From NCBI GenBank assembly GCA_020402745.1, contig JADBYZ010000019.1, positions 30,189 through 94,188 on the forward strand: a DNA stretch of 64,000 bases, given 5' to 3'. Of this stretch, positions 9,103 through 64,000 are shown in pieces. Position 1 is the stretch's first letter; every line of letters starts with the position of its first letter. Made by a program: the position numbers and the translations under genes. Under the pieces are notes generated by a model, which was given only the letters and a program-made list of their open reading frames with translations, was not told the origin of the DNA and did no database searches. The stretch comes from Phenylobacterium sp. Lineage in GTDB: Bacteria; Pseudomonadota; Alphaproteobacteria; Caulobacterales; Caulobacteraceae.

Positions 9103-9733
9103 CGGGCTTGGCGGCGGGATCCGCCGCAGGAGCCGCATCGGCAGGTGCGGCGGCCTCGGCGGGAGCCGCTGCAGGCGCCGCCGCCGCGGGGTTCGGAGCC
9201 GGCAGGGGCAGGCTGCCGCCCTGAGCGCGCAGGTAGGCAATCATGTTGACCCGGTCCTCGGACTTCTTGAGGCCGACGAAGGACATCTTGGTGCCCGGAA
9301 CATACTTCTGGGGCGCCCTCAGGTACTCGTAGAGTTGAAGGTCGTCCCAGACGGCCTGCTTGGCTCCAAATTCCGTCATGGCCGCTGAATAGGCGTAGCC
9401 GGCGTGCGTCCCGGGCTTAAGACCGACAACGCCCCAGAGGTTGGGGCCAATGCCGTTGGCGCCGCCATTGGCGATGTTGTGGCAGGCCTGGCACTTGGCG
9501 AAGACGGCCTCGCCGGCCTTTACGTCGGCGATTGGAAGAACGGTCCCGAAATCAGGAATCACCTCGGCGACGGCCGCCTCGCCGCCACCTTCAACGGTCG
9601 CCTCGATCAGATAGCCGGGCTTCTCCGGCGCCTCGACATTGAAGAGCCCCGTCGTGACTTCCCGAAGCCCGACGATGGCCAGGGCCGTCGCGAGCCCGGC
9701 GCCGGCGATCATGTTAAAGTTCAGATTGCTCAT
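9095..9733 (-). CDS. Membrane-anchored c-type cytochrome (class I)
   Basis: A 212-residue cytochrome c. An N-terminal uncleaved hydrophobic segment (MIAGAGLATALAIVGL, about 7-22) anchors it on the periplasmic side. Haem attaches at CQACH (about 80-84), and a distal Met is available in PGTKMSFVGL. The pattern matches the CycM/cytochrome c552 family that carries electrons between the bc1 complex and cytochrome oxidase. The C terminus is a low-complexity Ala/Pro tail of about 35 residues. The start chosen (MSNLNF) follows GGGACG. It is divergent from kdsB. Confidence 0.93.
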   Translation of the reverse strand: MSNLNFNMIAGAGLATALAIVGLREVTTGLFNVEAPEKPGYLIEATVEGGGEAAVAEVIPDFGTVLPIADVKAGEAVFAKCQACHNIANGGANGIGPNLWGVVGLKPGTHAGYAYSAAMTEFGAKQAVWDDLQLYEYLRAPQKYVPGTKMSFVGLKKSEDRVNMIAYLRAQGGSLPLPAPNPAAAAPAAAPAEAAAPADAAPAADPAAKPAA

Positions 9734-9900: not shown

Positions 9901-10647
9901 ATGACTCCGATCCTCCTCATCCCGGCGCGAATGGCCGCGACCCGACTGCCCGGCAAACCCCTGGCGGACATCGGCGGCCTGCCGATGATTGTCCGAGTCC
10001 TGCGCCAGGCCGAGGCCGCCGGTATCGGCCCGGTGGCCGTGGCGGCGGGAGACGCCGAGATCGTCCAGGCGGTCGAGGCGGCCGGAGGGCGCGCCGTCCT
10101 GACCGATCCGGACCTGCCGTCCGGGTCAGATCGCATCCTGGCCGCCCTGGGCGCACTTGACCCGGAGGGCCGCCACAACGTGGTGATCAATCTCCAGGGC
10201 GACATCCCCTTCATCGCCCCGGAGGCGATCCGCGCCTGCGCCGACCTCCTCGACCAGCGACCCGAGGCTGACATCTCCACCGTCATGGTCGCCGAGGCGG
10301 GCCCCGAGGACCGGACCAACCCGGACATGCCCAAGGTGGTCGCGGCCATGGACCCGGACGGACGGTCCGGCCGGGCCCTTTACTTCACCCGATCGGTGCT
10401 TTTCGGCGAAGGTCCGGTCTGGATCCATCACGGAATCTACGGCTACCGGCGTGAGGCGATTCAGCAGTTCACCGCCGCCCCGCCCTCTCCCCTGGAGCGC
10501 CGCGAGCGGCTCGAGCAGCTTCGGGCGCTGGAGCTGGGCATGACGATCTGGTCAGCCGTACTGGACGAGGCGCCCGTCTCGGTAGACAACCCCGCCGACC
10601 TGGAACGCGCCCGCGCCCACGCCCGGAGCCTTGGAGCCCCCGCATGA
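9901..10647 (+). CDS. kdsB: 3-deoxy-manno-octulosonate cytidylyltransferase
   Basis: A 248-residue enzyme that activates Kdo with CTP to CMP-Kdo for lipopolysaccharide inner-core synthesis. The nucleotide-binding opening IPARMAATRLPGKPLADIGG (about 6-25) and NLQGDIPFI (about 97-105) are the family signatures. The start ATG at 9901 gives the usual family length. In-frame codons upstream overlap the divergent cytochrome promoter and are unlikely. Its stop overlaps the pheA start by 4 bp (ATGA). Confidence 0.96.
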   Translation: MTPILLIPARMAATRLPGKPLADIGGLPMIVRVLRQAEAAGIGPVAVAAGDAEIVQAVEAAGGRAVLTDPDLPSGSDRILAALGALDPEGRHNVVINLQGDIPFIAPEAIRACADLLDQRPEADISTVMVAEAGPEDRTNPDMPKVVAAMDPDGRSGRALYFTRSVLFGEGPVWIHHGIYGYRREAIQQFTAAPPSPLERRERLEQLRALELGMTIWSAVLDEAPVSVDNPADLERARAHARSLGAPA

Positions 10648-11498
10648 ACCGCAACCGGATCGCCTTTCAGGGAGAGTTGGGCGCGAACGGTCACGAAGCC
10701 TGCCTGGCCGCCTACCCAGACATGGAGCCCGTGCCCTGCGCCACCTTTGAGGAGGCCTTCGAGGCCGTCAGCGCGGGCGAGTGCCGGCTGGGCATGATCG
10801 CGGTTGAGAACTCGATCGCCGGGCGGGTGGCCGACGTCCATCACCTCCTGCCCTCTTCGGGCCTGCGGATTATTGGCGAACACTTCAAGCCGATCCACTT
10901 CCAGCTGATGGCCAACCCCGGCGTGAGGGTGGACGACCTGAAGTCGGTGGCGTCCATGCCCATCGCCTTCGCCCAGTGCCGCGGAACCATCGCCCGCCTG
11001 GGCCTGACCCGAGAACCCGTCAGCGACACCGCCCTGGCCGCCCGCCAGCTGTCCGAGCGGCCAGACCCGACCCGTGCGGCGATCGCTCCGGCGCTGGCGG
11101 CGCGCCTCTATGGCCTCGACATCCTGCTTCCGGACATCGAGGACACACATAACAACACCACCCGCTTCCTGGTGATGACCGCTGACGCTGACGCCGAAGC
11201 CCCGGCCCCCGGGCCGGGCGTGACGTGCGTGACCAGCTTCGTCTTCCGGGTCCGCAACCTGCCCGCCGCCCTCTACAAGGCGCTGGGAGGCTTTGCGACA
11301 AATGGGGTCAACATGACCAAGCTGGAAAGCTACATGGAGAACGCCGCCTTCACGGCGACCTTCTTCTACTCCGAGATCGACGGGCGGCCCGAGGACGAAG
11401 CCGTCGCCCGCGCCTTCGAGGAGCTGCAGTTCTTCTCCGAGCGCTTCGAGATTCTCGGCGTCTATCCCGCAGCTCCCTACCGGGCCCAGGTGGGATAG
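10644..11498 (+). CDS. pheA: Prephenate dehydratase
   Basis: A 284-residue monofunctional enzyme that converts prephenate to phenylpyruvate in phenylalanine synthesis. The catalytic domain starts RIAFQGELGANGHEA and contains the substrate motif NNTTRFLVM (about 169-177). A C-terminal ACT domain (about 195-275), with NLPAALYKALGGFATNGVNM and TKLESYM, should bind phenylalanine for feedback control. There is no chorismate mutase domain. It is translationally coupled to kdsB. Copy A of the palindromic repeat begins 45 bp after its stop. Confidence 0.96.
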   Translation: MNRNRIAFQGELGANGHEACLAAYPDMEPVPCATFEEAFEAVSAGECRLGMIAVENSIAGRVADVHHLLPSSGLRIIGEHFKPIHFQLMANPGVRVDDLKSVASMPIAFAQCRGTIARLGLTREPVSDTALAARQLSERPDPTRAAIAPALAARLYGLDILLPDIEDTHNNTTRFLVMTADADAEAPAPGPGVTCVTSFVFRVRNLPAALYKALGGFATNGVNMTKLESYMENAAFTATFFYSEIDGRPEDEAVARAFEELQFFSERFEILGVYPAAPYRAQVG

Positions 11499-11542
11499 CG
11501 AACAAGCGCCCGCAGACGGTAGGTCTGGGGGGTCGGCTTAAG

Positions 11543-11664
11543 CGCCGTTGACCCCCTCCGTCCCGCTACGCGGTCCACCTCCCCCTTGGGGGGAGGAATT
11601 AGAAGCGCCAATTGCTCCCCCAAGGGGGAGCTGTCAGCGAAGCTGACTGAGGGGGTCAACGGCG
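11543..11664. repeat. Palindromic multi-hairpin element, copy A (complete)
   Basis: This is a 122-bp element between convergent pheA and nudC. Perfect 16-bp terminal inverted repeats occupy 11543-11558 and 11649-11664 (CGCCGTTGACCCCCTC and its complement). Inside lie four hairpins: CCGC/GCGG (11563-11573), CCTCCCCC/GGGGGAGG (11578-11596), GCTCCCCC-AA-GGGGGAGC (11614-11631) and GTCAGC-GAA-GCTGAC (11633-11647). The element ends 2 bp from the nudC stop. It has no coding capacity. It belongs to the same family as copies at 23868-23996 and 63801-63886. Confidence 0.9.
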
Positions 11665-11666
11665 GT

Positions 11667-12596
11667 TCAGCTGACCTCCTCCGCCCAGGCTTTGATGAGC
11701 TGGTGCGCGATGGCCATGCCGCCGGGGGAGAAACTGCCCTTGATCTCGCCGGCCAGCAGCGCCCGGGCGTCCTCGCGGGTGTACCAGCGCACCTCAGACA
11801 ACTCGGTCTGATCCGGACGGGCGTCATCGCTGTCGACCTCGGCGATCAGGCCGATCATCAGGGAGTTCGGGAAGGGCCAGGGCTGGGTGGAGTGGTAGCG
11901 CACCGTGGTGGCCCTCAGCCCCGCCTCCTCGAGGAGCTCGCGGGCGCAGGCCTCCTCGATGCTCTCGCCGGGCTCGAGGAAGCCGGCGAGGGCGGAGAAC
12001 ATCCCAGGCGGCCAGACCTCCTGGCGGCCCAGCATGCAGCGGTCGCCATGGACGGCCAGCATGATCACGACCGGATCGGTCCGGGGGAAGTGATCGGCGC
12101 CGCAGGCCGGGCATTCGCGCTTCCAGCCGCCCTCGGCGGTGCGGGTGGGCTCGCCACAGACGGAACAGGCCCGGTGCTTGCGCCGCCATTCGAAGACGCC
12201 CTTGGCGGTGCCGACGATGGCGATCTCGCCCGCCGGCAGGCTGGAGGCCAGGGCTCGCGCGTCCTCGAACCGTCCCATGCCCTGGAGCGGGCCATCCGTC
12301 GGGTCCGCGGGCCCCTCCAGATCGACGGCGAAGACCGCCGTGTCCTGCCACAGGCCCATGAACAGCAGCCGCTCGGGGCCCCCGGCCAGGTCCTCCACAA
12401 GCCGCGACGGCAGGTAGGCGATCTGGGTTCCGCCCGAGCCGGAGCGCTCCACGAGGGCCTTTCCGTTCCAGAGCACGAGACCCAGGGACTGGTCAGAGGA
12501 GAGGCGCTCGGCGAGCCAGGCGGAGTCCTTTCGGCGCTCGCTGGCGCGGTCCAGGGGGTTGCCGGCGAAGGTGTTCTGGAAGGCGTTCAAGGGCAT
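11667..12596 (-). CDS. nudC: NAD(+) diphosphatase / RNA-decapping Nudix hydrolase
   Basis: A 309-residue NudC: it hydrolyses NADH to NMNH and AMP, and known family members also remove NAD caps from RNA. It carries a four-Cys zinc ribbon, CSVCG ... CPACG (about 143-165). The Nudix box is GFLEPGESIEEACARELLEE and following residues (about 200-222). The motif after the box is the family-typical QPWPFPNSLMIG. The start MPLNAFQNTFAGN (ATG ending at 12596) gives normal length. Its promoter region backs onto that of the SRP RNA. Confidence 0.95.
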   Translation of the reverse strand: MPLNAFQNTFAGNPLDRASERRKDSAWLAERLSSDQSLGLVLWNGKALVERSGSGGTQIAYLPSRLVEDLAGGPERLLFMGLWQDTAVFAVDLEGPADPTDGPLQGMGRFEDARALASSLPAGEIAIVGTAKGVFEWRRKHRACSVCGEPTRTAEGGWKRECPACGADHFPRTDPVVIMLAVHGDRCMLGRQEVWPPGMFSALAGFLEPGESIEEACARELLEEAGLRATTVRYHSTQPWPFPNSLMIGLIAEVDSDDARPDQTELSEVRWYTREDARALLAGEIKGSFSPGGMAIAHQLIKAWAEEVS

Positions 12597-12635
12597 GAGT
12601 CGTCTTTTAGCCCACAGGCGACAATCTGCACACGC

Positions 12636-12664
12636 TTGCATGCACGTCTCGGGACCGCGATATA
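12636..12664 (+). promoter_or_regulatory. Probable promoter of the SRP RNA gene
   Basis: TTGCAT (12636-12641) and GATATA (12659-12664), 17 bp apart, sit with a spacing that places the start close to 12671, the first paired base of the RNA. Confidence 0.5.
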
Positions 12665-12670
12665 GGGGAT

Positions 12671-12764
12671 GGAGATCGGCGATGGGCGGACGCCTCGCCA
12701 ACCCGGTCAGGTCCGGAAGGAAGCAGCCGTAACGAGTCCCGTTCCGGGTCGTCGTCCGGTCTCC
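12671..12764 (+). ncRNA. ffs: Signal recognition particle RNA (4.5S type)
   Basis: The universal SRP apical motif GGTCAGGTCCGGAAGGAAGC lies at 12705-12724 and continues AGCC. This is the asymmetric-loop and tetraloop region bound by Ffh. Flanking sequences GGAGATCGG and CCGGTCTCC pair to close a single long hairpin of about 94 nt, the short bacterial form. Position directly before dnaX is typical for alphaproteobacteria. Ends are estimated from the pairing, so they are accurate only to a few bases. Confidence 0.95.
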
Positions 12765-12775
12765 ACCCAGCCCAA

Positions 12776-23867: not shown

Positions 23868-23996
23868 CGCTGTTGACCCCCTCACCGCGCTTCGCGCGGA
23901 GCTCCCCCTTGGGGGAGCAATTGGCGCTCTAATTCCTCCCCCGAGGGGGAGGTGGACCGGGGCAAGCCCCGGGCCGGAGGGGGTCAGCTGAGGCGC
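23868..23996. repeat. Palindromic multi-hairpin element, copy B (complete, inverted relative to A)
   Basis: Terminal repeats GTTGACCCCCTC (23872-23883) and GAGGGGGTCAGC (23977-23988) pair with one mismatch. Internal hairpins are CCGCGC-TTC-GCGCGG (23885-23899), GCTCCCCC-TT-GGGGGAGC (23901-23918), CCTCCCCC-GA-GGGGGAGG (23935-23952) and CCGGGGC-AA-GCCCCGG (23957-23972). The middle matches copy A read in reverse, including AATTAGAGCGCCAATT. A degenerate half copy (GGCTTCGCTGACAGC, 24012-24026) follows. It is located between convergent genes. Confidence 0.9.
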
Positions 23997-41949: not shown

Positions 41950-43614
41950 ATGCATATCGATCGTCGCAAGGCACTGGCGCTGTTCGGAGCGGGAACCGCC
42001 GCAGCCCCGGGGCCGGCCTTGGCCCAGGATCAGAGGGTGCGGTTTGACCACGGGGTCGCGTCCGGGGATCCCACCGCCGACCGGGTCATCCTCTGGACCC
42101 GAATCACACCCATGAACCCTTCCGCTGGGTCAGTCGCCTATGAGTGGAGCCTCAACCCCATCGACCGCCGGGCCGGCGGGGCGAAATCGGGCCGGGGAAC
42201 CACCTCGGCGGCGCGGGACTACACGGTCAAGGTTGACGTCGGCGACCTCGACCCGGGCCGGGCCTACACCTTCACCTTCACCTCCGGCGGCGTCACCTCG
42301 CCCATGGGCCGCACCCGCACTCTGCCAGAGGGTCCGGTGGAGGACGCCGTCCTGGCGATCGCCTCCTGCGCCCTCTACCCGGGCGGATACTACAACGCCT
42401 ACCAGGCCATCGCCGACCTGCCCCGGGTGGACGCGGTCCTGCACCTGGGCGACTACATCTATGAGTACGCGGCGGACGGCTACGGCGCAGAGACGGGCCG
42501 AAAGCTGAACCGGCTGGTCCGGCCAGCCCACGAGATCATCACCCTCGCGGATTACCGGAACCGCCACGCCCAGGTGAAGACCGATCCCCAGCTCCAGGCC
42601 GCCCACGCCCGGGCGCCCTGGATCGTGGTCTGGGACGACCATGAGACCGCCAACAACGCCTGGGTCGGCGGCGCCGAGAACCACGGCAAGGACGAGGGGT
42701 CCTGGAACCGTCGAAAGGCCGCCGCCATCAAGGCCTATTACGAATGGATGCCGATCCGCGAGCCAGATGGCGGCGGCTTCTCCATCAACCGGGCCTTCGA
42801 GTTCGGCGACCTGGCCACCCTGTTCATGCTCGAGACCCGGCTGACAGCGCGGGACCTGCAGCTGGACTACACCACTGACCTCATGGGCGCCGACGGCAAG
42901 CCGGACGTCGCCCGGTTCCGCGAGCGGCTGGCCGATCCCGATCGGCGCATGATGGGCCCGTCTCAGGCGGACTGGCTGCGCCGGGGCCTCGCCAACTCGG
43001 TCAAGTCCGGCCGGACCTGGCAGGTGCTCGGCAATGAGGTGGTCATGGCGCGGGTGGGCGTCCCCGACCTGCGCACCGCCCTAAGCCCGGAGCAGTTCGC
43101 CGAGGCCGCCGCGGGCCTGGGCCCGGATGGCGCCCGTCGCCTGAACCTCATGTCCGCCGTCGCCAGTCTTGGCCTGCCGTTCGGTCTGGACATGTGGGAT
43201 GGCTATCCCGCCGACCGCCAGCGCCTTTACAGCCTGATCCAGAAGGCCAAGGCCAACGCCGTCGTCGTCTCGGGCGACAGCCACGCCTTTTGGGCCAATG
43301 AGCTCTACGACGCCCCCGAAGGCGGAAACCGGGTGGGGGTGGAGTTCGGAACGACCGCGATCACCAGCCCGAGCCTCGGCGACATCCTGACCGGCGTCCC
43401 CGTGGGCCAGGTCATGGCCGACGCCAACCGGGAGGTGGTCTATTCCGAACAGTCGGCCAAGGGCTTCGTCCTCCTGACCCTCGGCCGCACCGAGGGCAAG
43501 GCCGAGATGATGGCCGTCTCCACCATCCTGGAGACCACCTTCACCACCAGCGTCCTCAAGACCTTCACCTTCACCCCCGGCGCGGACGGGGTGTCCGGGC
43601 TCAAGGAGGTTTAA
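41950..43614 (+). CDS. phoD: Alkaline phosphatase D family protein
   Basis: A 554-residue metallophosphoesterase. The N terminus MHIDRRKALALFGAG has a twin-arginine pattern (R-R-K-A-L), fitting export of folded PhoD by Tat. There is an Fn3-like N domain (about 30-130), then the metal-site motifs HLGDYIYEYA (about 174), WIVVWDDHETANNAWVG (about 229-245) and VVSGDSHAFWANEL (about 437). It would release phosphate from phosphodiesters or monoesters in the periplasm. GGGGGAG precedes the ATG by 9 bases. No Pho box was recognised. Confidence 0.92.
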   Translation: MHIDRRKALALFGAGTAAAPGPALAQDQRVRFDHGVASGDPTADRVILWTRITPMNPSAGSVAYEWSLNPIDRRAGGAKSGRGTTSAARDYTVKVDVGDLDPGRAYTFTFTSGGVTSPMGRTRTLPEGPVEDAVLAIASCALYPGGYYNAYQAIADLPRVDAVLHLGDYIYEYAADGYGAETGRKLNRLVRPAHEIITLADYRNRHAQVKTDPQLQAAHARAPWIVVWDDHETANNAWVGGAENHGKDEGSWNRRKAAAIKAYYEWMPIREPDGGGFSINRAFEFGDLATLFMLETRLTARDLQLDYTTDLMGADGKPDVARFRERLADPDRRMMGPSQADWLRRGLANSVKSGRTWQVLGNEVVMARVGVPDLRTALSPEQFAEAAAGLGPDGARRLNLMSAVASLGLPFGLDMWDGYPADRQRLYSLIQKAKANAVVVSGDSHAFWANELYDAPEGGNRVGVEFGTTAITSPSLGDILTGVPVGQVMADANREVVYSEQSAKGFVLLTLGRTEGKAEMMAVSTILETTFTTSVLKTFTFTPGADGVSGLKEV

Positions 43615-43621
43615 CGCCAGG

Positions 43622-43675
43622 CGCCCGGAGGCCCCCCCCAGGGGGAGCTGCGGGGAAGTCACGGTGAGGGGGTGC
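43622..43675. repeat. Relic of the palindromic element
   Basis: CCCCCCAGGGGGAGCTG, GGGAAGTCACGGTGAGGGGGT lines up with the right half of copy A (CCCCCAAGGGGGAGCTG, GCGAAGCTGACTGAGGGGGT) with several substitutions and small deletions. It lies between phoD and the convergent hydrolase pseudogene. Confidence 0.6.
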
Positions 43676-43680
43676 TTCCC

Positions 43681-44622
43681 TCAATCAATCATTCCGAGCA
43701 CGTCATTGACTGCTGCGATCACCGCCTCGGGTCGCTCAAGCGGGATCATGTGCCCGCAGTCGATCGTCCGCTGTACCGCCCGCCCGGAAAGGGCTGTGAT
43801 TTCGCAGTGCATCGCTTTCAGCGCTGCCTGGTGGCGAGCGCCGGACTCCCTAGCGGTATCGAAAGATCTGCCTGCAGTCAGCACCACCATCGGAAGCCTT
43901 CCCAGGTGCCGTCGGGCTTGGTCCAACTCCGCTGTGCTCCGAGTCTCGAACGAGTCCATTTCTGAGCCCTACGCCCGAAGATAACCCGGTGCGGTTCGTT
44001 GCCTGTGGAGGCTCTCGCTCATGGCGGCCGGTAGCGTTGGGTCGGGCAATCCCACGAACAACTTGTACGCGTCGGCGCCCGGGCTGAGCTAGCCAGCTCG
44101 GGCCATGGCCAGCGCTCTGGCACGCGCCCGCTGACCCGCGCGGCGCGCGGACAGCCGTTCCTCGGTCGTAAACCACCTCTCCAGCTGACGTTCACAGGAG
44201 GAATCCAAGAGGACGAGGCCTGCAACCTCTTCAGGGTGCAGAAAGGCGAACATCCGGGCCGCCATCCCTCCAATCGAGTGCCCCACCAAGACGTAGGGTG
44301 GGTCAATCTTCAGGCGCCGTAAGGCCGCCCGGATATCTCTCACAGCCGCACCGGAGGTGCGCTGCAGGGGTCCAGGTTGACTGAATCACACCCCCGCATA
44401 GTCGAAGGAAACGCATTTGGCGCCTTCAGCGACCGCGGGTTGAACCCTTCGCCAGTCGAACGTTCCTCCACCAAGTCCCGAAAAGAACACCACCGCTGGG
44501 GAGCCTCTGCCGAGCAGCATGAGATTCAGCCGCCGGCGGGAGTTGATCCGCACGCGTTGCTGAGGCGCGGCGTAGAGGTCTTGATCTTCAGGGGCGGGCC
44601 GAAGTGTCGGTCGCGTCATCAA
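43681..44622 (-). pseudogene. Alpha/beta hydrolase pseudogene with three in-frame stops
   Basis: One uninterrupted frame of about 314 codons, without frameshift, reads as an alpha/beta hydrolase. It has VVFFSGLGGGTFDWRRVQPA (oxyanion region), YVLVGHSIGGMAARMFAFLH (nucleophile Ser) and TIDCGHMIPLERPEAVIAAV (catalytic His). It is broken by TGA at 44386-44388 (after SFDYAGV), TAG at 44089-44091 (after ALAMARAG) and TAG at 43969-43971 (after APGYLRA). The segments between the stops remain hydrolase-like. Base composition looks lower in GC than the flanks. No functional product is expected unless the stops are misread. Confidence 0.85.
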
Positions 44623-44758
44623 TAGCGGGCCATGGGTTGCAATTCAGCTAGGGGTCGCAGATCGCGGCAGCCGGGACAAGCGCACCTCACCTCTCCCCGG
44701 GCCCGGAGGGGGTGTCGGGACTGACGGCGGGATGCAAGGTGGAACCGGGAGGCGCGCT

Positions 44759-45103
44759 TCAGGCCGCCAGTTCCGGAGTCCTGGATCGCCGCGGGACGGG
44801 ATTGCGAGTGCCAACCGAGATCCTGACCCGGACATCGCGGTTAAGCCGCTCAAGGATGCGCATCAGCCTGTCGACCGTAAACCGGTCGAGCCGGGCCTGA
44901 CGGATGCGCGAGAAGTCAGCCGCTGCAATGCCGGTACGCGCCGCCGCATCGCGTACGGTAAGCCGTTCCTTGTCGAGCGCCTTGACGACTTCCGAGGCCA
45001 GGAGGGCCCGAAGCTGGCGCAGGTTTGCGTCAGGTGCGTCGAAGTCTGCAAAGACATTGCCGGAGCCGCGCACCAGTTCGATATCGGGGATGGGGTCGTT
45101 CAC
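44759..45103 (-). CDS. HigA-like XRE-family antitoxin
   Basis: A 114-residue DNA-binding protein. The helix-turn-helix segment is TVRDAAARTGIAAADFSRIR then QARLDRFTVDRLMRILERLN (about 48-87), typical of antitoxins paired with Gp49-like toxins. It would neutralise the toxin and repress the pair. The gene is second in the operon and its ATG overlaps the toxin stop (ATGA), the toxin-first order of higBA. Confidence 0.85.
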   Translation of the reverse strand: MNDPIPDIELVRGSGNVFADFDAPDANLRQLRALLASEVVKALDKERLTVRDAAARTGIAAADFSRIRQARLDRFTVDRLMRILERLNRDVRVRISVGTRNPVPRRSRTPELAA

Positions 45104-45450
45104 GCCAGCGCCTCCTTCAGACGTTTGATCCGGTCGCGCACGAGATCGGTCTCGTAACGCGGCGTTGAAATTCCCTTTGTCGACTTCTTCTGGAAGGCAT
45201 GGACCACCCAGATGTCGTCGCCCAATTGCAGCGCATAGACGACCCGATAGGCATCGCCGCGTTCTCTGATCGCCAGTTCCCAGACCCCGCTGCCCAGTCC
45301 ACTCAGTGGCTTGGCCAGGTCCGGGGTTCCGCCATCGGCGATAATCGTCAGCGCATCTAGCGCCCGATCGATCGCGCGGGCCGGAAACGCCTCGAAATCC
45401 TTCCGCGCCGCCTTAATCCACGAAATCGTCCTGCGGGTCGGGCGCGCCAT
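45100..45450 (-). CDS. RelE/HigB-like toxin (phage Gp49-like family)
   Basis: A 116-residue basic protein. It contains WIKAARKDFEAFPARAIDRA, GSGVWELAIRERGDAYRVVY (about 53-72) and IWVVHAFQKKSTKGISTPRY (about 79-98), all characteristic of the Gp49-like HigB toxins that cleave mRNA at the ribosome. It is upstream of and overlaps the antitoxin. A dyad just before the start may be the operator. The module sits next to a pseudogene between phoD and hisI, suggesting acquired DNA. Confidence 0.87.
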   Translation of the reverse strand: MARPTRRTISWIKAARKDFEAFPARAIDRALDALTIIADGGTPDLAKPLSGLGSGVWELAIRERGDAYRVVYALQLGDDIWVVHAFQKKSTKGISTPRYETDLVRDRIKRLKEALA

Positions 45451-45458
45451 CCCGGAGT

Positions 45459-45476
45459 GTTGTCATATTTGCCAAC
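45459..45476. promoter_or_regulatory. Possible operator of the toxin-antitoxin pair
   Basis: GTTGTCAT and TTGCCAAC (reverse complement GTTGGCAA) form an imperfect dyad with six of eight matching positions, centred about 17 bp before the toxin start, in a locally AT-rich stretch. Confidence 0.35.
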
Positions 45477-45543
45477 TTTTCTCAAGTCGCGCAAAGTGAG
45501 GCCTTCACATGACCGTGCAATGAACCTGCATAACGCTCAAGCC

Positions 45544-59840: not shown

Positions 59841-59858
59841 GTCCGCAGTCCCGGGCAG

Positions 59859-59874
59859 GAGGGGGTCAAGGGCG
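59859..59874. repeat. Solo terminal-repeat relic of the palindromic element
   Basis: GAGGGGGTCAAGGGCG matches the right terminal repeat of copy A (GAGGGGGTCAACGGCG) at 15 of 16 bases. It lies in the 54-bp gap between two convergent genes. Confidence 0.5.
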
Positions 59875-59894
59875 TTTCCGCCTCACCCTTCCCG

Positions 59895-60641
59895 TCAGCC
59901 GCGGAACCCGTCCTTCTCGGACCGCAGGGCCGCGAAGGCCTCGTGCGGGGGAAGGCCCGGGCGAAGCCGGGGCGCCCGCAGGAAGGGATTGGTGGCCTTC
60001 TCCTCGGCCAGGGTGCTGGGCACGGTGGGCTCTCCCCGCTCCCGAGCCGCAAAGACCGCGTCGGCGCGGGCCTTCACCGCCGGGTCGGAATCCACGGCCA
60101 GGGCGAAGCGGGCGTTGGAGGCGGTGTACTCGTGCGCACAGTAGATCCGGGTGGCGTCCGGCAGGGCGGCGAGGCGTTGGAGGCTGGCCCACATCTGCGC
60201 CGGCGAGCCCTCGAACATGCGGCCGCAGCCGAGGGCGAACAGGGTGTCCCCGACGAAGGCCGCCCCGGCGGAGGGGACGAAGTAGGCGATATGGCCAAGG
60301 GTGTGCCCGCCGGACTCCAGCACCTGGAATTCGGTCTCGCCGAGAGTCACCGTCTCACCGGGCGCCAGGACCCTGTCCACCGGGAAGCGGCCCGTCACCT
60401 CGGACGGACCGAGGAGCTCGCAGCCGGTGGCGGCCTTGACCTCGGCGTTCCCCCCGGCGTGGTCCGCGTGCCAGTGGGTGTTGAGCACCAGGTCCAGCCC
60501 CCAGCCCAGTCTGTCCAACTCGGCCAGGATGGCGGCGGCGTCCGGGGTGTCGATGCAGGCGGTCCGCCCGGAGGCCTCGTCACGGACCAGGTAGCCGTAA
60601 TTGTCGGACAGGCAGGGGAACTGGTGAACGGTCAGGGTCAT
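59895..60641 (-). CDS. gloB: Hydroxyacylglutathione hydrolase (glyoxalase II)
   Basis: A 248-residue metallo-beta-lactamase-fold enzyme that hydrolyses S-lactoylglutathione to lactate and glutathione. The binuclear metal motif is LNTHWHADHAGGNAEVKAAT (His at about 55-60). GHTLGHIAYF, FVGDTLFALGCGRMFEG and YCAHEYTASNARFAL supply further ligands. The C-terminal glutathione-binding helices (TNPFLRAP) are present. The start MTLTVHQFPCL is divergent from the methyltransferase gene across 75 bp, an arrangement often seen for these two genes. Confidence 0.96.
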   Translation of the reverse strand: MTLTVHQFPCLSDNYGYLVRDEASGRTACIDTPDAAAILAELDRLGWGLDLVLNTHWHADHAGGNAEVKAATGCELLGPSEVTGRFPVDRVLAPGETVTLGETEFQVLESGGHTLGHIAYFVPSAGAAFVGDTLFALGCGRMFEGSPAQMWASLQRLAALPDATRIYCAHEYTASNARFALAVDSDPAVKARADAVFAARERGEPTVPSTLAEEKATNPFLRAPRLRPGLPPHEAFAALRSEKDGFRG

Positions 60642-63070: not shown

Positions 63071-63829
63071 ATGAAGACGCCCGCCGCGGATTCCCGCCTC
63101 ATCGTCCCCCTAGACCAACCCGGCCTTGCCGAGGCCCGCGCCCTCGTGGAGACCCTTGGCGACCGGGTCAGCTTCTACAAGGTCGGGCTGGAGCTGTTCG
63201 CTCGGGGCGGCATGGAGCTGGCGCGGGAGCTGAAGGGGAAGGGCAAGCAGGTCTTCCTTGATTGGAAGCTGCACGACATCGGCGCCACGGTGGAGCGGGC
63301 CGCCGCCGCCCTCTCGGACTCCGGCTGCGATCTCCTGACCGTGCACGCCGAGCCCCAGGTTATGGCCGCCGCGGTTCGGGGCGTGGGCCGGTCCGGCCTG
63401 AAGGTCCTGGCCGTCACCGTCCTGACCAGCCTGTCCGACGAGGACCTGAAGGCGATCGGTTACGCCTCCGGCGCGCGAAGCCTCGTGGAGCGACGCATCC
63501 ACCAGGCCCTTGAGGCCGGCTGCGCCGGGGTGGTGGCCAGTCCCCAGGAGGCCGAGCTGGCCCGGCGGATCGGCGGGAAGGACTTCCTGGTGGTCACGCC
63601 TGGGGTCCGCCCCGAATGGTCAGCGAAGAACGACCAGGTCCGGGCCGCAACACCCGCCGAGGCCCTGCGCGCCGGCGCCTCGCACCTGGTGTGCGGCCGG
63701 CCGATCTCAGCGGCGAACGACCCGGCCGAGGCGGCCCTGAAGGTGATCGCGGAGATGGCGGCCGTTCCGGCCCAGGACCCGAGAGTCAGGAACGGCGCTT
63801 CCGTTGACCCCCTCAGTCAGCTTCGCTGA
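63071..63829 (+). CDS. pyrF: Orotidine 5'-phosphate decarboxylase
   Basis: A 252-residue TIM-barrel enzyme that makes UMP from OMP. The catalytic motif VFLDWKLHDIGATVERAAAA (about 57-76) holds the D-x-K-x-x-D array. LTVHAEPQVMAAAVRG and VVTPGVRPEWSAKNDQVRAA (phosphate loop) follow. The last 10 codons (ASVDPLSQLR) and the stop TGA fall in the terminal repeat and first hairpin of palindromic element copy C. The native C terminus was therefore replaced or extended by the insertion. Confidence 0.95.
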   Translation: MKTPAADSRLIVPLDQPGLAEARALVETLGDRVSFYKVGLELFARGGMELARELKGKGKQVFLDWKLHDIGATVERAAAALSDSGCDLLTVHAEPQVMAAAVRGVGRSGLKVLAVTVLTSLSDEDLKAIGYASGARSLVERRIHQALEAGCAGVVASPQEAELARRIGGKDFLVVTPGVRPEWSAKNDQVRAATPAEALRAGASHLVCGRPISAANDPAEAALKVIAEMAAVPAQDPRVRNGASVDPLSQLR

Positions 63830-63886
63830 CAGCTCCCCCTTGGGGGAGCAATTGGTGCTCTAATTCCTCCCCCCAGGGGCAGGGGA
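63801..63886. repeat. Palindromic multi-hairpin element, copy C (right end lost), overlapping pyrF
   Basis: CCGTTGACCCCCTC (63801-63814) is the terminal repeat. Hairpins are GTCAGC-TTC-GCTGAC (63816-63830), GCTCCCCC-TT-GGGGGAGC (63832-63849) and a decayed CCTCCCCCC/GGGGCAGG (63866-63883). The fourth hairpin and the other terminal repeat are missing. The orientation is the same as copy B and inverted relative to A. The pyrF stop codon is inside the first hairpin. Confidence 0.88.
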
Positions 63887-64000
63887 ATCGCATATGCCGC
63901 CGCCTCTGACAGGAAACCGACGCTGGTAAGCGTCTGCAGTCCAAGAGGCAGTCACCGATTCCGTTTTGTTCCCGGTTTTTTGATCGAGCGAGTCTTGCGC
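63887..64000 (+). other. Non-coding end of window
   Basis: No gene was recognised here. It contains a perfect GACGCT-GGTA-AGCGTC hairpin (63919-63934) and an unusually T-rich stretch ending in six T (63976-63981). It may be the promoter region or leader of the next gene, or a small RNA, but nothing decides between these. Confidence 0.3.

Follow-up and report, generated by a model that had tools for sequence, protein, structure and literature searches.

Position and architecture of the element

The window analysed here is a 64,000-nucleotide stretch (G000:C11:30189-94188) of a 2.87-Mb genome in 46 contigs, hereafter G000, and coordinates given without a genome or locus label refer to it. Element A (11543-11664, 125.4 bits) lies between two convergent genes, each recognised as an open reading frame with homologues: one on the + strand (10644-11498), which we take to be the prephenate dehydratase gene pheA, and one on the - strand (11667-12701, start uncertain), presumably the NUDIX hydrolase gene nudC, whose stop codon occupies 11667-11669. 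A bacterial small SRP RNA (Rfam RF00169, 60.1 bits) is found at 12670-12768, just upstream of the start of an open reading frame that we assume to be dnaX-like. Over the whole window (1-64000) GANTC is strongly depleted, with 111 sites against 276 expected in shuffles, as is expected where CcrM methylation matters.

An earlier note on this DNA had described a 122-bp element with perfect 16-bp terminal inverted repeats. The two ends (11543-11558 and 11649-11664, both annotated on the + strand) are exact reverse complements over 16 of 16 bases, forming the 5' and 3' arms of a closing stem, and the core from 11543 to 11664 is real; the extent of 122 bp, however, omits outer arms of the repeat. 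With mismatches allowed the arms reach 35 nt at 86% (11528-11562 and 11645-11679), the outer left arm (11528-11542, +) joining an inter-unit hairpin in tandem units and the outer right arm (11665-11679, +) holding the stop codon of the facing gene, which reads TCA on this strand. Between the arms of the closing stem lie, on the + strand, hairpin H1 (11560-11576; Y unit, with a variable stem that contains one C.T mismatch in element A), H2 (11578-11596; Y unit, CCTCCCC/GGGGAGG), a linker (11597-11613) with AATT on both sides in the alignment, H3 (11614-11631; Z unit, GCTCCCC/GGGGAGC) and H4 (11633-11647; Z unit, GTCAGC-GAA-GCTGAC), the hairpin coordinates being converted by hand from alignment columns. 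A half-unit is made up of a stem arm, a variable hairpin, a strong hairpin and AATT, and the element is two such half-units placed face to face.

Both strands fold far better than 200 dinucleotide shuffles: the + strand, with RNA parameters, at -96.8 kcal/mol against a shuffled mean of -57.6 (z -9.3, 0/200), and the - strand, with DNA parameters, at -54.3 against -26.3 (z -9.3, 0/200). The minimum-energy fold of element A is a single long imperfect hairpin in which the halves pair together, not four hairpins; the four consecutive hairpins that had been proposed are backed by covariation in 24 copies, though not by element A's own energy.

Covariation and helix conservation

Covariation was measured in an alignment (A1) of 24 copies from G000, for which 25 two-half copies out of 43 placed copies were considered; one, c42d, whose H2 arm is damaged (GGTATGG) and whose linker is short, was left out, and because this damaged copy was dropped A1 is biased to intact copies. 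The four hairpins and the closing stem are paired in 94.2% of 911 cells. Five measures of covariation were taken in all. The four-hairpin structure contains 64 cells with double-sided changes, against a shuffled mean of 27.5 (0/500 shuffles reach 64), its covariation score is 0.172 against 0.056 in shuffles, and at most three double-sided changes remain when partners are shifted by 1-3 columns; two measures gave no excess over shuffles, namely double-changed pairs (8 against 7.3, 217/500) and further pair types (11 against 11.4, 419/500). The long-palindrome structure, with only one double-changed cell against 2.9 in shuffles, was rejected, and it is because of the 24-copy covariation that the four local hairpins are preferred over it.

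Compensatory variation is present in both variable hairpins. The H1 column pairs 17-35 and 20-32 are changed on both sides in 7/24 and 8/24 copies, respectively, and H4 shows both-sided change in five of its six pairs, with 99.3% of cells paired. H2 and H3 carry no double-sided change within G000, and compensating pair differences are found between the halves and between genera. Template switching in quasi-palindromes can also yield covariation of DNA palindromes, without selection on RNA, and the compensatory stems may accordingly be a mutational by-product in which one arm is copied onto the other and the hairpins need no function. Arm-templated correction would give just what is seen in H4, a small set of distinct arm pairs that are almost always complementary, whereas the column pair at the base of H1 (16-36) is unpaired in 14/24 copies and the strong stems vary little from genus to genus; we regard such an origin as somewhat unlikely, whilst giving it real weight.

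The same five helices are kept in 18 sequences, four from G000 and 14 from five other genera, with 142/144 pairs in the outer helix, 87/90 in H1, 126/126 in each of H2 and H3 and 90/90 in H4, counts that are flattering across genera because arms were picked for best pairing. The weakest helix is H1 of locus L285 (3/5 pairs). The structure-blind alignment A2 misplaces hairpin gaps in these distant members, and helices were hence counted by script; 17 distant loci were examined, with L269 and L281 (short) and L277 (composite) left out. Members from other genera bear CCTTCCC/GGGAAGG and GCTTCCC/GGGAAGC stems.

Copies and distribution

Searching G000 with the element by blastn gave 101 rows, collapsed by hand to at least 56 distinct places, a lower bound with the best 40 of 99 candidates scored. 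Copies are solitary, in unrelated surroundings, or strung together in tandem and joined by a shared linking hairpin; the best other copy is 95% identical to element A over 124 bp. The two further copies that the earlier note had placed in the window were both confirmed: copy B (23872-23988, - strand, 121 bits) and copy C (63803-63879, - strand), which comprises a Z unit and part of H2, broken at the hairpin tip. The window also holds a 56-bp family fragment between two gene ends (59841-59896), missing in the relative G048, and a degenerate half-unit (43631-43673), neither assigned to a strand.

The wider distribution was searched with a covariance model, as the earlier note had suggested; this model, R1, was built from the 24 copies, and many further copies were found in G000, in the genus and in the order; numbers per genome are lower bounds, with the 8-40 best candidates scored in each. 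Within the genus, which the closest named contigs indicate to be Phenylobacterium, 47/101 genomes match R1 at E 1e-5 and 54/101 have no match. Thirteen genomes of 2.3-3.1 Mb carry at least 25-37 matches each, 37 being the most that were scored, and the other matching genomes 1-18, and the copy-rich genomes do not form a single clade, G019 standing apart from six others in a pheA tree of 11 rows. Around pheA homologues (80 named loci, 1.42 Mb), matches at E 1e-3 or better occur at two loci, L066 from an uncultured MAG (89 bits) and L085 from a Caulobacter MAG (39 and 36 bits). Over the order, R1 matches are present in 45/249 genomes and 17/48 sampled genera, and another genus of the same family contains a second group rich in copies. 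Three of 289 genomes match in the class sample, namely G000 itself, G353 (11 matches) and G618 (one match); G353 (loci L286, L289 and L291) is an alphaproteobacterium outside the order, several of its matches are closely spaced, and they reflect either distant kinship with the family or a convergent architecture.

In the complete genome G065 a 400-kb stretch contains 33 clusters, two of which are the sides of one insert-split element, and the 643-kb contig G048:C18 contains 10. A different, single double-hairpin unit, CTCCCTCCC..GGGGAGGGA together with GACCGC-GAA-GCGGTC, was observed right after the pheA homologue in a Phenylobacterium MAG (L071, from 2262), which suggests that the dimer may have arisen later than the half-unit.

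Comparison with known repeat families

No Rfam family matched the element at gathering score (the best, whalefall-1, was rejected at 17.4 bits against the 37 needed), and neither a published name nor a named family for it was found in open-access papers, in keeping with the earlier note, which did not recognise the family. In architecture the family is REP/BIME-like, as had been proposed, with related double-hairpin half-units inverted and alternating, often in arrays, in intergenic positions and at high copy number, and it constitutes a variant for which we found no published name. We use the label BIME-like only, as the unit is a double hairpin against the single hairpins described, and it is by description that the family is set apart from enterobacterial REPs. 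The tetranucleotide GTAG, or its complement CTAC, occurs anywhere in 5/24 copies, within a loop or in variants of the ends and not as a conserved tag (by eye). At the base of H1, CGTC is found in 10/24 copies, CGGC in 11/24 and CGAC in 3/24, and the stems have no A-T start (again by eye).

The CGTC-tagged REPs of alphaproteobacteria, as described in PMC3733652, each consist of one hairpin, whose 8-9-bp stem begins with A-T pairs and is preceded by a CGTC (or TGTC, CCTC) tag. Like the present element they are described there as palindromes arranged mostly as head-to-head dimers at the 3' ends of convergent ORFs, and as not associated with transposase genes; the element differs in having two hairpins per half-unit, no A-T-first stem and CGTC in only the 10/24 copies noted above. 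The words Caulobacter, Phenylobacterium and Brevundimonas are absent from the main text of that paper. With the REP/BIME and REPIN systems of Enterobacteria and Pseudomonas, as far as the cited portions of PMC2817692 and PMC3116915 describe them, the element shares alternating inverted units, arrays and intergenic location, but it differs in its two hairpins per unit, in lacking a conserved GTAG and in the absence of a RAYT over cut-off (see below). The CIR1-4 repeats of Caulobacter (Chen and Shapiro 2003, via PMC2229807) are likewise described as intergenic structured repeats of about 110 bp in Caulobacter and relatives; according to that secondary account they carry a conserved GANTC, whereas GANTC occurs in 0/24 copies of the element and nowhere in window 11528-11680, and a CIR identity was rejected on this mark, by description and not by sequence. 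Br-REP1 of Bradyrhizobium, described in PMC5082802 as a set of three stem-loops that lies between convergent genes and shows up in RNA data, is similar in placement and differs in sequence (CCGGAATCTCGAGATTCCGG).

Mobility and the search for a mobiliser

The presence of the element varies between relatives. Site A is occupied by the element in G000, by the outer arm alone in G048 and by a remnant in G042, and is empty in G007 and G038; G030 has two copies, in a different intergenic stretch, and the MAG L066, a relative of G038 and G007, nevertheless carries a diverged copy. G048 lacks copy C, copy c24 and the 59841-59896 fragment at the corresponding sites. One explanation for such differences is that the element is a fixed cis-regulatory 3' element, held by selection and immobile, with deletions and recombination accounting for the variation. 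Sites common to the species G000 and G048 (c35 and c45, with differing copy numbers) fit this, and the state of G048 at site A could be a deletion that left the outer arm; the span within the genus from genomes with no match to those with at least 37, and the 95%-identical copies at unrelated loci in G000, speak against it, and we consider immobility improbable.

An automatic comparison of relatives yielded 17 filled/empty pairs, of which nine were inspected at base level. In the cleanest, G042 against G048 (flanks 95-97% identical), the 13-bp direct repeat GCCCGCCTCGGGG brackets the G042 array on both sides and is present once in G048; the insertion is also found in G078, where the second repeat has decayed. 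The other inspected sites showed no clear target duplication by eye, and several resemble the replacement of a short intergenic stretch. These observations bear on the suggestion, also made in the earlier note, that the element is a MITE, in the strict sense one derived by deletion from a DDE insertion sequence, with a transposase that would recognise the CGCCGTTGACCCCCTC ends and generate a duplication of about 13 bp. The perfect 16-bp ends and the G042 array speak for such an origin, but a target duplication is evident at only one site among the nine inspected pairs, and a solo half-unit exists (G048:C18 391192-391262, absent from G042); we judge a MITE origin unlikely.

The earlier note had also proposed an unlinked REP-type transposase as mobiliser, and this part of its account was not borne out. 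No match to PF01797, the Y1 family to which RAYT belongs, exists in G000, and 0/13 element-rich genomes have one over cut-off, G094 having one sub-threshold match broken by two stops; the proposed mobiliser is unsupported because no Y1 protein exceeds the cut-off in these 13. Over the genus PF01797 matches occur in 20/101 genomes (18 over cut-off), and 12 scanned Y1 loci, of 23 matches, had no copy in the fetched flank (best model match E 0.74). A cognate RAYT was accordingly rejected. A classical REP or REPIN whose RAYT disappeared later, or acts from elsewhere, would fit the inverted short-palindrome dimers at 3' ends, which the cited part of PMC3733652 gives as typical of REPs, and the occurrence of Y1 transposases in the genus. 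Against this stand the copy-rich genomes with no RAYT over cut-off, the 12 scanned Y1 loci without adjoining copies and the lack of a conserved GTAG tag at hairpin bases, and we give this scenario little credence.

Sequences that lie far apart on the G048 contig C18 meet at the element in locus L362 (G030:C54), at 1371-1594 and 9168-9282, reflecting either recombination between copies or assembly chimaeras at a repeat. At 43610-45542 the window contains a 1.9-kb segment missing in G048 (about 11 bp there), with the degenerate half-unit at its left edge; its only ORFs, of 141 and 271 aa, were not labelled by any search. Plasmid and phage records gave short partial matches only, in five plasmids (Rhizobium, Methylobacterium, Deinococcus) and one phage, and a plasmid or phage origin of the element was rejected.

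A landing site for two other mobile elements

The element serves as a landing site for two other mobile elements. The first is a 164-bp MITE-like insert with ends CAGGG...CCCTG, found at many contig ends of G000 with 49 junction rows (23 + 26) in the 46 contigs. Every one of the 46 scored junctions coincides with the tip of a hairpin; the stem is of H2 type, the usual insertion point, in 45 of them and of H3 type in the remaining one. Three unscored junctions (C11, which is copy C, C31 and C44) also lie at tips, that of C31 being H3-type. The right end of the window is itself such a junction, the start of the insert (63880-64000, +) being cut by the contig end. Duplications of 10 bp (CCCCTGGGGG and CCCCAAGGGG) border the full inserts of G065 and G048, and a full insert in G042 has no clear duplication. 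In G048, CCATCCACGG is found at two contig ends, which are probably opposite sides of a single copy; the site there is not a palindrome, so the preference of the insert for tips is not absolute in G048. The possibility that the insert represents the ends of a full-length insertion sequence was rejected, since readings from contig ends meet after 164 bp and full copies exist in G065, G048 and G042. It is present in 4/101 genus genomes, and its 64-nt end had no match in plasmids. Three GANTC sites fall within the 121 bp of the insert in the window; other loci carrying it are L252, L253, L254, L264 and L266.

The second is an IS110-type element. In G042 an ORF with the IS110-type domain PF02371 (65.8 bits) ends beside a Z unit, the right end of the element lying in the Z half-unit at one fixed point (L369 15246-16199, G042:C193) and the other side keeping the GGTTGACCCTC arm. 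Two G000 contig starts (L008 1-140 and L310 1-140) have a closely similar 3' end at the same Z-unit point; PF02371 was not found in the G000 assembly, where these short tails are without a Pfam match over cut-off. The matching end of one gene carries the 164-bp insert in G000 and the IS110-type element in G042; this gene we assume to be thiolase-like.

Insertion sequences specific to palindromic repeats are reported in the consulted part of PMC1525189 (ISPsy8, ISPa11, ISPpu9/10, ISRm22 and ISRm19). The present case resembles these in that mobile elements target a repeat, and differs from them in two ways: one of the users is MITE-like, measures 164 bp and shows a 10-bp duplication at the tip, and an IS110-type element also enters, at another point of the same family.

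Gene context and a possible role at mRNA 3' ends

The earlier note had considered a bidirectional module at transcript ends, and placement at gene 3' ends holds, with convergent placement enriched in two of three genomes. In G000, 15/23 clusters lie between convergent genes, against 111/532 neighbour pairs in G048:C18 (Fisher 1e-5), the background, about 20%, being borrowed from G048 in this case; in G065 the figure is 17/33 against 71/360 in the same stretch (p = 1e-4), and in G048 just 3/10 (p = 0.35). Gene calls were our own and GC3-based, and gene context in G000 refers to 23 of 45 fetched loci, the others lying near contig ends or overlapping; a cruder gene-strand script again gave 15/23 and 3/10 convergent, with the remainder split differently. 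The distance from element to facing stop is -7 to 69 nt in 45/47 cases (G000 and G048 together) and -8 to 85 nt in 39/45 (G065). Stop codons fall within or just outside the repeat at site A and at copy C (by eye), and at copy C the upstream frame enters the element, that of G048 stopping earlier (by eye). This placement agrees with that of convergent REPs in general, as described in the cited part of PMC3733652.

No intrinsic-terminator-like site (a GC hairpin followed by a T run) was found on either strand of 11400-11800, and a Rho-independent terminator was rejected. The two half-units mirror each other around the AATT-flanked linker, so a polymerase arriving from either gene would make the variable and then the strong hairpin some tens of bases past the stop; a transcript from either side would thus present a short stem arm, the variable hairpin and the strong hairpin, in that order. 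Such hairpins would block 3'-5' exonucleases from the mRNA 3' end, and the element would aid factor-dependent termination or stop opposing polymerases, not intrinsic termination, a barrier and factor-dependent stop being what we infer because there is no T run. Judged from sequence and placement, the element is probably a bidirectional mRNA 3' end-piece, and its presence at 3' ends would be tolerated, perhaps selected; alternatively, the hairpins might be kept by the copying mechanism itself.

Interpretation

The reading we favour, with moderate confidence, is that of a high-copy, REP/BIME-like, non-autonomous repeat that would act as a bidirectional mRNA 3' end and would spread by a transposition-like process, for which an enzyme was not found. 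More tentatively, and with rather less confidence than we place in that reading, the family may belong to a paired double-hairpin superfamily throughout the Caulobacterales, known by architecture over sequence, which would spread to 3' ends without RAYT and provide a landing pad for at least two unrelated mobile elements at different fixed points.

A practical effect is that such elements end contigs, the window's own end included. The 46/46 targeting of tips by the 164-bp insert offers a natural experiment in how a target is chosen by its structure. Many bacteria are rich in REP-like repeats, with RAYT as the best-supported mobiliser, and the copy-rich genomes without a RAYT over cut-off, in the order of the model organism Caulobacter, make the question of what moves orphan REPs testable. 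If the superfamily reading is true, convergent gene ends would constitute a shared neutral harbour for mobile DNA.
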